Shown in pieces: positions 383 to 5,215 of a DNA stretch of 6,210 nucleotides. The stretch is from the NCBI GenBank assembly GCA_030630935.1, contig DAOVMD010000196.1, positions 1 through 6,210 on the forward strand, given 5' to 3'. This stretch comes from Candidatus Mcinerneyibacteriota bacterium. Lineage in GTDB: Bacteria > AUK180 > JAQVHJ01. The first letter of the stretch is position 1; each line of letters begins with the position of its first letter. The notes beneath the pieces were generated by a model. The model was not told the DNA's origin. It did no database searches and saw only the letters and a program-made list of their open reading frames with translations. A program made the position numbers and the translations under genes.

Positions 383-871
383 ATGACTTTTGAAGAATTT
401 AAGACAATGTGGGAGACTGAAGCAAAAACAGAACTGGGTGCAATTAAAATGTATTTAATCGGGATTCTGGAACTGGTTACAGAAGAGAATAAATATGGGA
501 ATAAAATGATTGCAATGTGTGTTCATAAAGACGAGTTCAATGAAGATTTTAAGCCAAGATCAAGCCAGCAATTTTATATTGGACAATTTGCAAAAAAAGT
601 AAAGGGAACAGATTATTATGGAGCCATTGCAGCTTCATACCTGGGGGGAACTCATGAAAACGGTTACAAATACGATTATAAAAATGCCCTTGTTGAGAAA
701 AAAGCAGGAACTTCCCGTGGTGAAAAAGAAACAAAAATCTTTATCCAGAGCGGTGGAAAAGATAACCCAACTCCGGTATCTCTTAAAAAAAATAAATATG
801 GCTATTGGAAATTAATTTGTTCATCTTCACTTTGCACCGGTGTTAAAGATATTAAATCAGACGACTTCTAA
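383..871 (+). CDS. Uncharacterised 162-residue protein (possible DUF6935-like)
   Basis: The reading frame is complete from ATG to TAA, with its own promoter (297-325) and a strong AGGAGG site, so it is very likely a real gene. The product has no signal peptide or membrane segment and should be cytoplasmic. The N-terminal half (residues 1-50) looks helical, with acidic starts such as MTFEEFKTMWETEA. The second half is rich in G, Y and K. The stretch around residues 115-155 (KIFIQSGGKDNPTPVSLKK, then YGYWKLICSSSLCTGVK) resembles, from memory, small proteins carrying DUF6935. Those end in a similar 'phosphoprotein-like' segment of S-G-G/A-D-x-P-x-P-V-x-LKK followed by W-K-L and S-S-x-C. The family role is unknown, and this match was not checked against any database. 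It is the only gene on the plus strand, divergent in function from the pilus genes, and followed by repeats rather than by a clear terminator. Confidence 0.75.
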   Translation: MTFEEFKTMWETEAKTELGAIKMYLIGILELVTEENKYGNKMIAMCVHKDEFNEDFKPRSSQQFYIGQFAKKVKGTDYYGAIAASYLGGTHENGYKYDYKNALVEKKAGTSRGEKETKIFIQSGGKDNPTPVSLKKNKYGYWKLICSSSLCTGVKDIKSDDF

Positions 872-1144: not shown

Positions 1145-1178
1145 AAAAGTTTGAGCGAAGCGAGCAATATATAATATT
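1145..1178 (+). repeat. 34-base inverted repeat, left copy
   Basis: This stretch is the exact reverse complement of 3541-3574; with one mismatch the match extends left to 1142. The core TTGAGCGAAGCGAGCAAT carries GCGAAGC at 1155-1161, and the right side is AT-only (ATATATAATATT). Cluster R1 (minus orientation) lies to its left and cluster R2 (plus orientation) to its right. The other copy has the same flanking arrangement. Confidence 0.85.
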
Positions 1179-1183
1179 CTTTT

Positions 1184-1256
1184 TTCGTGTTCTTCGTGTC
1201 TGGAGTTTACCCCGAATTCACTTCGGGGTGGCTAAGTAAGTTTGTGCTTTCGAGGT
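1184..1256 (+). repeat. TTCGTGGCTAA repeat cluster R2, split by a hairpin
   Basis: TTCGTGTTCTTCGTGTCT (from 1184) begins a normal unit, but the expected TCGTGGCTAA end is replaced by a 21-base hairpin (1209-1229) that then runs into GGCTAAG. A further degenerate half-unit, GTGCTTTCGAGGTTAAT, ends near 1260. The cluster begins about six bases after the left copy of the 34-base inverted repeat. Confidence 0.6.
1209..1229. repeat. Perfect hairpin, ACCCCGAA/TTCGGGGT
   Basis: Eight-base arms (1209-1216 and 1222-1229) pair exactly around the loop TTCAC. It lies inside what would otherwise be one TTCGTGGCTAA unit. No T-run follows on either strand, so a terminator role is unlikely. Confidence 0.75.
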
Positions 1257-1311
1257 TAATTTCTTGATATAACCTTAGAACAAGAATATTAAAGACATAA
1301 GTTTTTTTTAA

Positions 1312-1378
1312 CTTAATCCCTTTAATTCCTGTAATATATTTTTTTAATCCCTTCCTTTCCTTAATCCCTGTAAAAATC
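1312..1378 (-). repeat. Degenerate TTAATCCC/TTAATTCC tract
   Basis: The words CTTAATCCCTTTAATTCCTG, TTTTAATCCCTTCC and CCTTAATCCCTGTAAAAATC follow one another. On the minus strand they read as repeats of (A/C)AGG(A/G)ATTAA(A/G)GG. This is a third repeat family in the window and is fused to the second direct-repeat copy at 1376. Confidence 0.55.
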
Positions 1379-1475
1379 ACACAGAGATGCATTATAAGTA
1401 TTATTCGCTTTCTGGTTCTAAGTAACATTATAATATAGAACAAAAAAATAAGTAAGTATATATTTTCTGTTTTTT
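1376..1475. repeat. Direct repeat, copy 2 of about 100 bases
   Basis: This is the partner of 1031-1131 at an offset of 345 bases. It includes AGAGATGCAT (1383-1392) and the exact 18-base word at 1407-1424. It ends where cluster R3 begins. Confidence 0.75.
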
Positions 1476-1478
1476 GTT

Positions 1479-1583
1479 TTTCGTGTCCTTCGTGCTTTCG
1501 TGGCTAATCAAATTCGTGTTTTCGCGTATTCGTGGCTAACAAACTTCGTGGTTTTATGATTCTTTCAGAATTTCGTGGTTAGG
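1479..1583 (+). repeat. TTCGTGGCTAA repeat cluster R3
   Basis: Four units have CGTGG(C/T) words at 1499, 1531, 1547 and 1574, so the spacing is irregular (32, 16 and 27 bases). The cluster lies directly 3' of the secretin gene and its last unit runs into that gene's final codons. On the secretin coding strand it reads TTAGCCACGAA. Confidence 0.8.
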
Positions 1584-3424
1584 TATATTCCGTTTAATGT
1601 AAGGTTCATACCAACTGTCGAACTTTTTCTAATTTTCTTTTCCTGTTTAATCTGCCAGAGTTGATATCCTGCAGCAATAAATGAAATCCCTGCAAGTGTG
1701 TAAGATGAATCCCTGAAAGTTTTCCTATTATACATTGAATGGCGTAATGAATTTAAATTTAATGTTGCTGCTTCATAGATATCTCTTTTTTCAGTATATT
1801 CCCTGTTTAAATAATAACCTCCAAGTGAAAAGCATAAACCTGTGATAAAATATGTATTGGATTTATTCTTCATAAAGCTGATGTCTTTTCTTTCAGTTAT
1901 TGTTTCATAGTCAAATGGTTTTAGTTCAATATCTGATTTAGGTTTGATCTCTTCATTATATATTCTTTCAGAATCATCGTTCTTTACGATATGCGGTCTG
2001 ATATAAAAAACCAGTTCCGTTCCTTCGTCCTTCTTTTTAAACTGTCTGAAAAAATAACCTAAGATAGGAATCTTTCCTGCAATAGGGAACCTATCTTCAG
2101 CAAAGGTATCGTCTCTTTTTATTAATCCACCGATTACAATTATATCTCCGTCTTTAACCCTTACAACGGTATTGGCTTTTTTCTTTGATGTTGCAGTTTT
2201 TCCAGAACCGGAGGTGGGGATAAAATCACTTACTTCAGGATGAAGTTCGAGTATGATCTCATCATTTCCAGTAACGGTTGCTTTTAACTTCAGGATTACA
2301 CCGGTCTGGATTTTCTCTAAAGATGTCAAAGGAGTTTCAACATTCCCGGTTGTGACTTCAAAGTATTGGTCACAACCGACATTTATCTCTGCTTCATGAC
2401 CACTTAGAGTGGATATATGCGGTTTTGCAATTATCTTTGCTTTGTTCTCCGTTTCAAGAGCTTTTAAGAAAGCTGAAAACTGTCCTGATTCCCAAGCTTC
2501 CTTATCAAAAGACCCGGAGATAATCCCTCCGGTTGCTGTAGCAGTTGACCCGGGCTGAAATTCAATCTCTGTAAAGTTTCCTGTTTTCCCAATTGTACTG
2601 AAACCGTAATCCTTTGTTATCCCGGCTTTATACTCGACTATTATAGCTTCTATCATAACAACAGGGGTAGGGATGTCTATCAGATCTATGTATTCAATTG
2701 CTTTTAGTATATCTTGGCTGCTTCCTACAAGTAAAATAGCATTACCCTCTTTTAAAACTTTTACTTTTATATTGGGAACAATATCTGAAAGTACCTCAAC
2801 AACATCCTCTGCTTTTAAATGATCAATTATTATGAATGAACTTGAGCTTAAGATTGATGCTGCAGGTGAAGTTAACGATGAATCACCGATTATATAAATA
2901 TTATCCAGAACTTTTAGTGTATACTTTGTTCCGCCAAGTAAAAGTTCAATCCCTTCCTGTAAAGTAACATCTGTCAGGCGAGCATCTACAGTTCCCACTA
3001 AAGTACCATGGATAACAATATTTATCTCTGCCTTATCAGCGATTTCATTTAGAACTTCCTTAAGGTCAGCACTCTTAATATCACAACTTAAATTATAACC
3101 GTCAGAAGTAATATTAAGCTTTCCACCCTTACGCTTGGGAGTGGAGACCAAGTACATATTACCTTTCTTCTGATAAGTGTAACCATTAGCTTCAAGAATA
3201 CGCTTAAGAGCAACCTCTAATGTAACATCCTTTAAGTTAATCGAAATTTTACCCTTTACACTTGCATCAGGAACAATGTTGACTCCTGCCTGCTGTGAAA
3301 GGATACGTAGAATCTCAAGGATCTCAGTGTCCTTTGCATTGATTGTAATCTTCTTCTCAATCCCGAAAGTTAGGACCGCGAAAAGTAAGATTAGTAAGAC
3401 TAATAAAAATGTTTTCCTTTTCAA
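1565..3424 (-). CDS. Secretin (type II secretion / type IV pilus outer-membrane pore)
   Basis: The protein is complete at 619 residues. It would form the outer-membrane ring through which a type IV pilus or type II secretion pseudopilus works. Residues 1-21 are a signal peptide (KRK, then a run of L/V/F) with no lipobox. Two STN-like N-domains follow (about 24-95 and 105-180), then a NolW-type N-domain (about 196-260). The secretin core spans about 317-480, with the hallmark FPIAGKIPILGYFFR at 446-460 and GGLI at 432-435. A longer in-frame TTG exists at 3436, but it lies on the Shine-Dalgarno sequence itself. I chose TTG 3424 because GGAGG (3430-3434) stands five bases before it and the protein then begins with the signal peptide. 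Unusually, about 140 residues follow the core, with two hydrophobic segments (about 523-540 and 574-590). The last residues, LTTKF, are encoded by a TTCGTGG repeat unit. Pseudopilin genes lie upstream. The secretin identity is certain; pilus versus secretion role is not. Confidence 0.93.
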   Translation of the reverse strand: MKRKTFLLVLLILLFAVLTFGIEKKITINAKDTEILEILRILSQQAGVNIVPDASVKGKISINLKDVTLEVALKRILEANGYTYQKKGNMYLVSTPKRKGGKLNITSDGYNLSCDIKSADLKEVLNEIADKAEINIVIHGTLVGTVDARLTDVTLQEGIELLLGGTKYTLKVLDNIYIIGDSSLTSPAASILSSSSFIIIDHLKAEDVVEVLSDIVPNIKVKVLKEGNAILLVGSSQDILKAIEYIDLIDIPTPVVMIEAIIVEYKAGITKDYGFSTIGKTGNFTEIEFQPGSTATATGGIISGSFDKEAWESGQFSAFLKALETENKAKIIAKPHISTLSGHEAEINVGCDQYFEVTTGNVETPLTSLEKIQTGVILKLKATVTGNDEIILELHPEVSDFIPTSGSGKTATSKKKANTVVRVKDGDIIVIGGLIKRDDTFAEDRFPIAGKIPILGYFFRQFKKKDEGTELVFYIRPHIVKNDDSERIYNEEIKPKSDIELKPFDYETITERKDISFMKNKSNTYFITGLCFSLGGYYLNREYTEKRDIYEAATLNLNSLRHSMYNRKTFRDSSYTLAGISFIAAGYQLWQIKQEKKIRKSSTVGMNLTLNGIYLTTKF

Positions 3425-3429
3425 ATTTA

Positions 3430-3434
3430 CCTCC
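3430..3434 (-). promoter_or_regulatory. Ribosome binding site deciding the secretin start
   Basis: On the minus strand GGAGG is followed by TAAAT and then TTG at 3424-3422. This is the same five-base spacing as the AGGAGG of the gene at 383. It makes the TTG at 3424, not the one at 3436, the likely start codon. Confidence 0.75.
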
Positions 3435-3445
3435 AAAACTATTTA

Positions 3446-3538
3446 ACTACAAAGACACGAATTTTCTTAGCCACGAAGTCACAAAACCCCGAAGTTTATT
3501 AATTGTTTAGCCACGAAAACGCGAAGGACACGAAGGAT
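3446..3538 (-). repeat. TTCGTGGCTAA repeat cluster R4 (minus orientation)
   Basis: Two clear units, with GCCACG at 3470 and 3510, read TTAGCCACGAA on the plus strand. A third partial unit (CTACAAAGACACGAA) lies nearest the secretin start. Unlike clusters 3' of genes, this one is on the 5' side of a gene and is inverted relative to R5. Confidence 0.75.
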
Positions 3539-3540
3539 AA

Positions 3541-3574
3541 AATATTATATATTGCTCGCTTCGCTCAAACTTTT
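3541..3574 (-). repeat. 34-base inverted repeat, right copy
   Basis: This is the exact reverse complement of 1145-1178, with GCTTCGC (the complement of GCGAAGC) at 3558-3564. It starts two bases after cluster R4 and lies 27 bases before R5. The AT-rich end of the element abuts a repeat cluster in both copies, even though the copies point in opposite directions. This suggests the core and the adjoining cluster form one unit. Confidence 0.85.
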
Positions 3575-3601
3575 AAAAAGATTATTATTAAATAAGTTCT
3601 A

Positions 3602-3718
3602 TTTCGTGCATTTCGTGCCTTCGTGGCTAAATACAATAGAATTCTTTTCGTGTTCTTCGAGACTTCGTGGCTAATAGAAATCGAAATTCTTTCTTGGCTT
3701 TTAAGCTTTCGTGTTTTC
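3602..3718 (+). repeat. TTCGTGGCTAA repeat cluster R5
   Basis: Two good units have CGTGGC at 3622 and 3666, exactly 44 bases apart. A decayed third unit (TTCTTGGCTTTTAAGCTTTCG) follows. The cluster is 3' of the GxxExxY gene and reads TTAGCCACGAA on that gene's coding strand. Confidence 0.8.
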
Positions 3719-3734
3719 TGAATAAAATGTTTAG

Positions 3735-3747
3735 ATTATGAGAAGAA
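3735..3747 (+). repeat. 13-base inverted repeat flanking GxxExxY, left arm
   Basis: ATTATGAGAAGAA here is the exact reverse complement of 4199-4211. ACCATG follows 12 bases further in, and the right arm has ACCATG seven bases further in. There is no obvious target-site duplication outside the arms. Confidence 0.5.
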
Positions 3748-3782
3748 GAATATCTGTTTACCATGCTTAAAAGATCTTGTGA

Positions 3783-4151
3783 TTAATTTACAATTCTTTT
3801 TATTTCTAAAACTGATTTAGAAAAATTCAGAATAAGTGCAACTTTCAATCCAGTTGCTTTCAAGTATGATATTACTTGTGCTATATGAAAATCGGTAAGC
3901 TCTTTTACTGCTTTTAATTCAATTACCATTTCATTGTTAATCAACAAATCTATAACATGTGTTCCAACTAAACTTTCCTTAAAGAAAATATTTATCTGTT
4001 TCTGTTTTTCAAAATTAATCTTATCATTGCATAGTTGAATCTCTAAAGCATTCTGATAAATTGATTCTAAAAAACCAGATCCTAAAGTTTTATGAACTTT
4101 AATTGCTGAGTTAATTACTCTGCTAGAGATCTCTTCAAATTGCTTGGGCAT
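3783..4151 (-). CDS. GxxExxY protein (PD-(D/E)XK nuclease-fold family)
   Basis: This is a complete 122-residue cytoplasmic protein, close to the usual size of its family. The name-giving motif is GFLESIY, with G26, E29 and Y32. The nuclease-fold core follows as D68 (HVIDLL), then E78-x-K80 (VIELKAV), then Q92-x3-Y96 (AQVISYL), so all residues expected of an active PD-(D/E)XK site are present. The family is widespread in environmental bacteria and its role is not established; nuclease activity is an inference from fold. ATG 4151 is supported by AGAAGG eight bases upstream, and the frame closes with a stop a little further upstream. The gene interrupts the pilus locus, has a candidate promoter of its own, is bracketed by a 13-base inverted repeat, and has TTCGTGGCTAA clusters on both sides. 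Family assignment is firm; function is open. Confidence 0.9.
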   Translation of the reverse strand: MPKQFEEISSRVINSAIKVHKTLGSGFLESIYQNALEIQLCNDKINFEKQKQINIFFKESLVGTHVIDLLINNEMVIELKAVKELTDFHIAQVISYLKATGLKVALILNFSKSVLEIKRIVN

Positions 4152-4159
4152 ATTTATAA

Positions 4160-4165
4160 CCTTCT
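4160..4165 (-). promoter_or_regulatory. Ribosome binding site of the GxxExxY gene
   Basis: AGAAGG on the minus strand stands eight bases before the ATG at 4151. The next in-frame codons upstream contain no alternative start before a stop near 4185. Confidence 0.65.
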
Positions 4166-4198
4166 GAATTTCAATCTCTTTTTTTCATGGTCGAACTT

Positions 4199-4211
4199 TT
4201 CTTCTCATAAT
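4199..4211 (-). repeat. 13-base inverted repeat flanking GxxExxY, right arm
   Basis: This is the reverse complement of 3735-3747. It overlaps the -10 box proposed for the GxxExxY promoter, so promoter and repeat may share function or simply share sequence. Confidence 0.5.
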
Positions 4212-4235
4212 ATATCAAAGAGCCTATATTGTTAA
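4207..4235 (-). promoter_or_regulatory. Candidate promoter of the GxxExxY gene
   Basis: On the minus strand TTAACA (4230-4235) and TATTAT (4207-4212) are 17 bases apart, five of six matches each to the -35 and -10 consensus. Transcription would start near 4200, about 50 bases before the ATG. In DNA this AT-rich such matches can arise by chance. Confidence 0.45.
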
Positions 4236-4255
4236 AATTACTTAATTAAAAAATC

Positions 4256-4443
4256 TTTTCCTTCGTGCTTTTCCTATCTTCATGGTCAATTAAATCATTC
4301 TTCCTTTCGTGCCTTTCGCGTCTTCGTGGCTAATTGAACTTACTTTCATTTCGTGTCCTTCGTGTTTTCGTGGCAAATATAAAAGGACCTTTTTCGTGCC
4401 TTTCGCGTCTTCGTGGCTAATGCAATTCTATCTTCGTGGTTTA
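4256..4443 (+). repeat. TTCGTGGCTAA repeat cluster R6, regular 44-base array
   Basis: Four full units have C(A/G)TGG words at 4281, 4325, 4369 and 4412, giving steps of 44, 44 and 43 bases. A partial unit follows at 4433-4443. The second and fourth units share 30 identical bases (4305-4334 and 4392-4421). Each unit is about 30 bases with three TTCG(T/C)G words at about nine-base steps; the DNA between units differs and is AT-rich. On the pseudopilin coding strand the array reads TTAGCCACGAA and it overruns that gene's 3' end. Confidence 0.85.
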
Positions 4444-4853
4444 ACGAGGATTTCATATTTCTCTGTCATCTTCGCATCTTCAATTTCAATCATTATTTTC
4501 ACAAGTCCATCTTTATCTTCGTGGTCAATTCTCGTCACTTTAAAGATTTCGCGGTTTGTCAGAAGTTTCTCATTTCTAAATAAAGAGCAGTTGTCAATAT
4601 GATAAATTATTTTATTATCGTTTATTATTTCGAGTCTTCCGGTAGATGCATCACTTTCCTTCGCAGAATACAAATCTTCTCGTATCAAATTTACCATTGT
4701 GTTTATTATAATTGATTTTTCCGATTTTTGCAAGGAAAATTTTGTGGTTTGTGTGAGAATCTTTAAGAAAAAAAAGAAGAATACAGAAATCAATGAGACT
4801 ATTACCAATACAATCAAGACTTCTGTTAATGTAAATCCCTTTTTCTTTACCAT
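4428..4853 (-). CDS. PilW/GspJ-like minor pseudopilin
   Basis: This 141-residue protein begins with a class III (prepilin) signal: MVKKKG, cut after G6, then FTLTEVLIVL with F7 as the new N-terminus and the conserved glutamate E11 at mature position 5. A hydrophobic helix runs to about residue 30. The prepilin peptidase would cleave and methylate it, and it would sit in the inner membrane before joining a pilus or pseudopilus tip. The rest (IIYHIDNCSLFRNEKLL, then alternating strands) fits the PilW/PulJ/GspJ type better than a major pilin. It is somewhat short for GspJ. The ATG overlaps the upstream pseudopilin by seven bases, with AGGA just before it, which indicates translational coupling. 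The last residues KPRR and the stop come from a TTCGTGG repeat unit, so the C-terminus may have been cut or replaced. Pseudopilin is certain; subtype is tentative. Confidence 0.88.
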   Translation of the reverse strand: MVKKKGFTLTEVLIVLVIVSLISVFFFFFLKILTQTTKFSLQKSEKSIIINTMVNLIREDLYSAKESDASTGRLEIINDNKIIYHIDNCSLFRNEKLLTNREIFKVTRIDHEDKDGLVKIMIEIEDAKMTEKYEILVKPRR

Positions 4854-5215
4854 AATATCCTGTATAGTTTTATTTTTTCTTTTAACATTTCATGCTCAAC
4901 TGAAACCTCTAGAAAAGTAAGTTCTCCTTCAACCCGAATCCTTTCTTCAACTTTAAAAATATAATCATTAAAGTTCCTGGTAAATGTTCTGTCTTCAAGA
5001 GTTTCGCTATTCTCAAATTTATTAATTTCTTCTTCAACTATATTTGAACATAATATCAATGCTGAGTCAATGACGTCATTAGACTTTAGATTATTTGAAA
5101 TTGAGTTTAAGAAACTTAGAACAGGAATGAAAACCATTAATAACAGGAATATTCCTATCAAAGTTTCTATTAAAGTAAACCCGGATTCTTTTTTAAATCT
5201 TAATAAACTTTCCAT
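4847..5215 (-). CDS. PilV/GspI-like minor pseudopilin
   Basis: This 122-residue protein has a prepilin leader MESLLRFKKESG, a cleavage site after G12, then FTLIETLIGIFLLL with mature F13 and the conserved glutamate E17. Prepilin peptidase would process it at the inner membrane. Length, the ETLIGIFLLL form of the helix, and its place just before a GspJ/PilW-like gene fit the PilV/GspI group, which primes the tip complex in type IV pili and type II secretion. The soluble part is short and charged (residues 45-122). The ATG lies inside the last codons of the upstream gene (16-base overlap), with no clear Shine-Dalgarno sequence, so translation probably depends on coupling. It overlaps the next gene by seven bases. 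Pseudopilin is certain; the exact class is less so. Confidence 0.88.
   Translation of the reverse strand: MESLLRFKKESGFTLIETLIGIFLLLMVFIPVLSFLNSISNNLKSNDVIDSALILCSNIVEEEINKFENSETLEDRTFTRNFNDYIFKVEERIRVEGELTFLEVSVEHEMLKEKIKLYRILW

Follow-up and report, generated by a model that had tools for sequence, protein, structure and literature searches.

The clusters of short repeats in this 6,210-nt stretch of DNA (the window, meaning the whole stretch analyzed) are most likely end sequences of GxxExxY elements, or derivatives of such elements that lack the gene; the element is apparently a chromosomal unit, roughly 0.5 kb long, with a single small gene for a predicted PD-(D/E)XK nuclease between inverted arrays. 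A GxxExxY gene is present at 3783-4151; the preliminary description had not named it, and it accounts for the arrays of the window. In many phyla, members of a protein family annotated from a motif alone have inverted arrays on both sides of their genes, and in genomes of this kind matching arrays without the gene are common as intergenic repeats. The GxxExxY element is very widespread and almost unstudied. The open-access papers searched mention GxxExxY only in passing; no description of flanking arrays turned up in them, and searches with the repeat strings gave no relevant match there; the association may be on record elsewhere.

Repeat arrays and the 34-bp core

The window is an entire contig (C208) of an assembly of 3.16 Mb in 471 contigs, and this genome was searched by pattern. 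The clusters consist of a 28-mer, TTAGCCACGAAGACACGAAGGACACGAA, present in 13 window copies in both orientations and made up of direct units (TTAGCCACGAA.CACGAA.CACGAA). Features are listed by position, strand and type.

921-948, plus: 28-mer unit, diverged
965-991, plus: 28-mer unit, diverged
1026-1104, plus: a different dispersed repeat of about 80 nt, which recurs in the window at 1371-1449 (81%)
1145-1178, plus: 34-bp core, copy A (AAAGTTTGAGCGAAGCGAG tail/linker module and AT-rich end; exact inverted repeat; 45-copy family)
1184-1235, minus: 28-mer unit interrupted by a hairpin sequence of 27 nt (equally split array on contig C288)
1202-1228, plus: hairpin sequence GGAGTTTACCCCGAATTCACTTCGGGG within the array, present in arrays of other contigs too
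1480-1507, minus: 28-mer unit
1513-1539, minus: 28-mer unit
1565-3436, minus: secretin (PF00263, STN, N0, Secretin_N), likely TTG start near 3424 after GGAGGT
3437-4427, no strand: insert of about 1 kb separating the pilin and secretin genes; relatives lack it
3467-3493, plus: 28-mer unit (left, outer)
3507-3534, plus: 28-mer unit, left end of the gene-less array-core-array 3507-3630
3541-3574, minus: 34-bp core, copy B, exact inverted repeat with copy A
3603-3630, minus: 28-mer unit, right end of 3507-3630
3647-3674, minus: 28-mer unit
3783-4151, minus: GxxExxY gene, 122 aa, PD-(D/E)XK nuclease fold (TIGR04256 / PF13366 PDDEXK_3)
4262-4289, minus: 28-mer unit, diverged
4306-4333, minus: 28-mer unit
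4350-4377, minus: 28-mer unit
4393-4420, minus: 28-mer unit, right outer end, adjoining CCACGAAG, the pilin's last codons and stop
4428-5215, minus: two overlapping prepilin-like genes (4428-4853, 4847-5215)

Consecutive 28-mers recur every 40-44 nt, mostly 43-44 (3603-3674, 4262-4420, 921-991), and are separated by unique spacers. The 40-44-nt spacing was considered as that of a CRISPR array, a reading that was dropped: the 28-mers are diverged, the spacers measure 12-16 nt (the criterion is 26-72) and the window is without cas genes. A search of Rfam returned no match.

The preliminary description centered on an exact 34-base inverted repeat, and this was confirmed: 1145-1178 (AAAAGTTTGAGCGAAGCGAGCAATATATAATATT) is the reverse complement of 3541-3574 without a mismatch. 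The perfect match stops at these 34 bases (over 44 nt, complementarity is 91%), and the longest inverted repeat in 100 dinucleotide shuffles of the window averaged 13 nt, with a maximum of 18, against 34 in the real sequence. The AT-only end was said to lie against a cluster; it does abut an array in both copies, and in a third near-copy (C288:11362-11392, 3 mismatches) the AT-rich end likewise lies against one. The claim that each core sits inside a palindromic cluster pair holds in part: arrays converge on both cores, but the layout is clean only at copy B (3507-3534, core, 3603-3630). The cluster sequence ascribed to both sites, TTAGCCACGAA, occurs exactly only at 3467 and 3507; to the left of copy A the cluster has TTTGCCGCGAA and TTTGCCACGAA (921-948, 965-991), of the form TTTGCCRCGAA. 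A gap of about 150 nt, holding the repeat at 1026-1104, separates this cluster from the core, and the array on the right (1184-1235) is interrupted by the 27-nt hairpin sequence (1202-1228).

The first half of the core, AAAGTTTGAGCG, has 45 copies in the genome, compared to none for the reversed control. Of 33 inspected copies, 27 immediately follow an array of the same strand at its outer end; the preceding arrays are mostly GTTCTCGTTAGTTCTCTTCAGTTCCCTGTtaaataaa, with CTCTGCGTCCTCTGCGGTGAAA and ATCCCGTCC types and hairpin-split arrays also present. Such arrays occur in 3.4% of random 60-nt stretches from the same loci. An array of opposite orientation faces AAAGTTTGAGCG in one of the 33 copies, namely copy B of the window. 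Because most copies directly follow outer array ends, the 34-bp core is a tail or linker module on the outer side of arrays, and the convergent copy B is exceptional. What survives of the proposed defined composite element is thus that the clusters are non-random, inversely arranged and part of a genome-wide repeat system; the core is not its heart, most of the inspected copies being array tails rather than the center of a convergent composite, and two oppositely oriented copies just happen to lie on either side of the secretin.

GxxExxY genes and their inverted arrays

The GxxExxY gene lies between the arrays of core B and the next arrays, with core B on one side and the pilin genes on the other. 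Its product belongs to GxxExxY (132.4 bits against TIGR04256, where the cut-off is 35; 2e-38 against PF13366), a family named from its sequence motif only. In an alignment of 66 proteins the motif G26-E29-Y32 is invariant, as are G24, D68, E78, K80 and N109, while Q92 and Y96 are almost so. A search of the PDB by sequence gave no match. The AF2 model (pLDDT 95, pTM 0.87) resembles folds of the Cas4/RecB/lambda-exonuclease type: its best VIA match is SSO0001, a Cas4 nuclease, at Z 10.4 with an rmsd of 3.2 over 98 residues, and the other structure matches listed have Z <8 and favor no single family. By modeled fold and by its D...ExK residues, the protein is predicted to be a PD-(D/E)XK nuclease. 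Nucleases of the Cas4 / RecB type (SSO0001, lambda exonuclease, MGME1) are the nearest solved folds, and their D-ExK and QxxxY motifs are conserved; unlike these, the 122-aa protein is a bare nuclease domain, and the window has no cas or recombination context. PADLOC gave a weak Cas4b match (E 0.017). At one other GxxExxY locus (L138, G002:C16, about 1450-1880) a gene with CGAAT-type arrays lies between apparent cas4 and cas1 genes of a CRISPR operon, as read from translation.

This genome carries six GxxExxY genes. Four of them (window, C42, C69, C461) have clean inverted arrays and two (C28, C351) have weaker array traces. The inverted arrays are wholly different: AACAGGGATGTACGGGATGTACGGGATG on C461, GACAGGGAACTGAAGAGAACTAACGAGAACTT on C69 and ACAGAGACTTTTACGAGACTTGTAAGGGACTTTT on C42. 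The comparison was extended to 98 GxxExxY loci from many phyla, picked through protein similarity alone, in which the two 250-bp flanks were compared. A strict inverted score of at least 15 was reached at 53 of the 98 loci, but at none of 444 shifted positions in these loci; it was reached in 2/98 when the best of 20 shuffles was taken, and in 1.3% of mismatched pairs. Some loci lack clear inverted arrays. Direct-orientation matches between flanks were seen at 23/98 loci, partly because the arrays are themselves repeated. In Prevotella nigrescens (L170, NZ_CP082843) the arrays flanking GxxExxY are seemingly direct, not inverted (ACAAATCGGGACAAATCGAACAAAT).

Each array end comprises about three units of 8-10 nt (the best unit period falls in this range in 56/64), the sequence of which varies between elements and matches across the two ends of one element. 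Outer ends are mostly TTAACC(A/G)C... or GACAGGA..., and the median element is 507 bp. Array similarity is correlated with protein similarity (Mantel r 0.31; 0/2000 permutations), a result that fits recognition of the arrays by the protein but could also reflect plain linkage. The loci of the two nearest relatives of the window protein, both in Deltaproteobacteria, have the CACGAA unit in common, and the array at L046, whose protein is 52% identical to that of the window, differs. Across 65 gene-bearing elements target-site duplication gave no signal above that of mismatched pairs; it could have been lost from old insertions.

Insertion sites and array numbers

In three lineages a GxxExxY element separates genes that are neighbors in relatives, in each case from comparison between species at the level of genes rather than bases. 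In relatives of the window (G005, G003, G002) the second pilin gene overlaps the start of the secretin gene, whereas in the window the two are separated by 990 bp made up of arrays, core and GxxExxY, and array-type sequence (AAACCACGAAGATAG) supplies the last codons and the stop of the pilin. Parabacteroides has radA and a FAD gene 13 bp apart, as against radA-array-GxxExxY-array-FAD gene in Bacteroides finegoldii, and fabD-fabG of Sphingomonas exists in forms with and without the element. In the search for a base-level empty site G003 had no syntenic match for the G002 element, Prevotella yielded no clean comparison and the G046 family comprised one genome only. Array-like words (GACCACGAAGATAAAGATGG, AACCGCGAAATC) also occur in the coding end of the window's pilin (4428-4560).

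Arrays greatly exceed genes in number and are enriched in GxxExxY-bearing genomes. The genome of the window has, against its six GxxExxY genes, 45 core modules plus exact TTCGTGGCTAA arrays on 10 contigs. Among 60 genomes, CRCAGAG-type arrays gave 523 matches in the 19 with GxxExxY and 69 in the 41 without (reversed control 18), and possession of at least 5 matches is associated with presence of the gene (Fisher p 6e-5). One genome (G053) has 149 matches and a single GxxExxY gene. Of the 69 matches in genomes without the gene, 52 come from one near-complete genome (G014) with no GxxExxY match: its gene may have been lost, its enzyme may have diverged, or another factor may spread the arrays. 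Loci with gene-less arrays, where tested, yielded no remnants of GxxExxY. The protein is nearly absent from the phages, plasmids and viral contigs searched and so does not resemble a frequent passenger of other mobile DNA.

A nuclease proposed to spread arrays, and the alternatives

The explanation we favor, and regard as probable, is that the nuclease acts on the triple-unit arrays and so spreads array-bounded DNA, in a relation like that of REP sequences to RAYT. The nuclease would bind the triple-unit arrays and nick or cut DNA there, and array-bounded DNA would thereby be copied or moved into intergenic sites; that GxxExxY itself recognizes and moves the arrays is what we infer. The likeness to REP / BIME and RAYT (TnpA-REP) lies in a nuclease-type gene flanked by inverted short repeats, with many gene-less repeats elsewhere in the genome, in chromosomal and intergenic positions (PMC2817692, PMC8266576). 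However, RAYT is an HUH tyrosine transposase whereas GxxExxY is of the PD-(D/E)XK type, and REPs are GTAG/CGTC-tagged hairpins whereas GxxExxY elements end in three direct units of 8-10 nt (PMC2817692, PMC8266576); in a further difference, the array unit sequence varies between GxxExxY elements within one genome. Because both enzyme and repeat type differ, the system is not a member of REP/RAYT, but it has there its closest working parallel. If the nuclease spreads arrays, GxxExxY gains a directly testable function, and bacterial repeat populations have a new enzymatic route comparable with REP/RAYT. GxxExxY elements may explain a type of 'junk' repeat that is common in bacteria. More tentatively, and in our judgment somewhat against the balance of probability, GxxExxY with its triple-unit ends could form a separate class of minimal mobile element, in which a RecB/Cas4-like nuclease, the only protein, mobilizes itself and large numbers of gene-less arrays without target duplication. 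Were this true, the class would span many bacterial phyla and some archaea, and its arrays would be the source of common intergenic repeats of the CACAGAG / CACGAAG / ACAGGATT type.

The arrays might instead be recognition or regulatory sites of another host factor – a nucleoid protein, or a terminator-like or RNA-level element – between which GxxExxY merely settles, or which it cuts in the role of parasite or guard, without being the mover. Numerous arrays in a genome without any GxxExxY gene (G014), the absence of target-site duplication in our test and the frequent position of arrays directly after stop codons would all fit; but the ends of one element match each other and differ from those of other elements in the same genome, as is expected of element ends but not of host sites in general, and arrays lie immediately outside the gene at loci from many phyla, so that we consider this reading unlikely, though it is the most credible of the competing accounts. 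Much less probable is that the pairs flanking the core represent MITEs of the ordinary kind, belonging to a classical DDE insertion sequence located outside the window. Terminal inverted repeats, as looked for in MITEs and DDE insertion sequences, are indeed present, and the array-core-array of 3507-3630 is a short gene-less segment of 124 bp between inverted ends; yet these ends are repeat arrays, the gene found between such ends encodes a PD-(D/E)XK nuclease and not a DDE transposase (no DDE parent was seen), and target duplications were not seen around gene-bearing elements.

Least probable of all, and in our view hardly credible, is the idea that recombination between the two 34-bp copies flips the 2.4-kb secretin segment, as the preliminary description had suggested. 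It draws on the perfect inverted repeat around a single gene, and homologous recombination between repeats of 34-44 bp is possible in principle. Profile searches, however, found no recombinase gene within the 6.2-kb window, and relatives have the same orientation: four secretin orthologues (49-54% identical) come from within the same taxonomic class, and in all three orthologue loci with a readable operon secretin and pilin share a strand, which is also the arrangement of the window. Moreover the core belongs to a set of 45 dispersed modules, most of which do not form such pairs, and the window holds numerous further inverted array pairs besides the core pair.

Other sequences accompany the arrays. 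The gene for a DUF6935 protein (window 383-871) adjoins them, and several copies of the repeat of about 80 nt (GATGCAT..TTTGCTTTCTGGTTCTAAGT) adjoin a ACAGGGATTAAACGGATTAAA array; this repeat is also found at L025 (C427) and L003 (C288). The GGAGTTTACCCCG...CGGGG hairpin sequence, often preceded by GTGTC/GCGTCC-like bases, lies within arrays of differing families (window 1202-1228, C288, C152, C461) and may be another small mobile sequence, one with arrays as its target.
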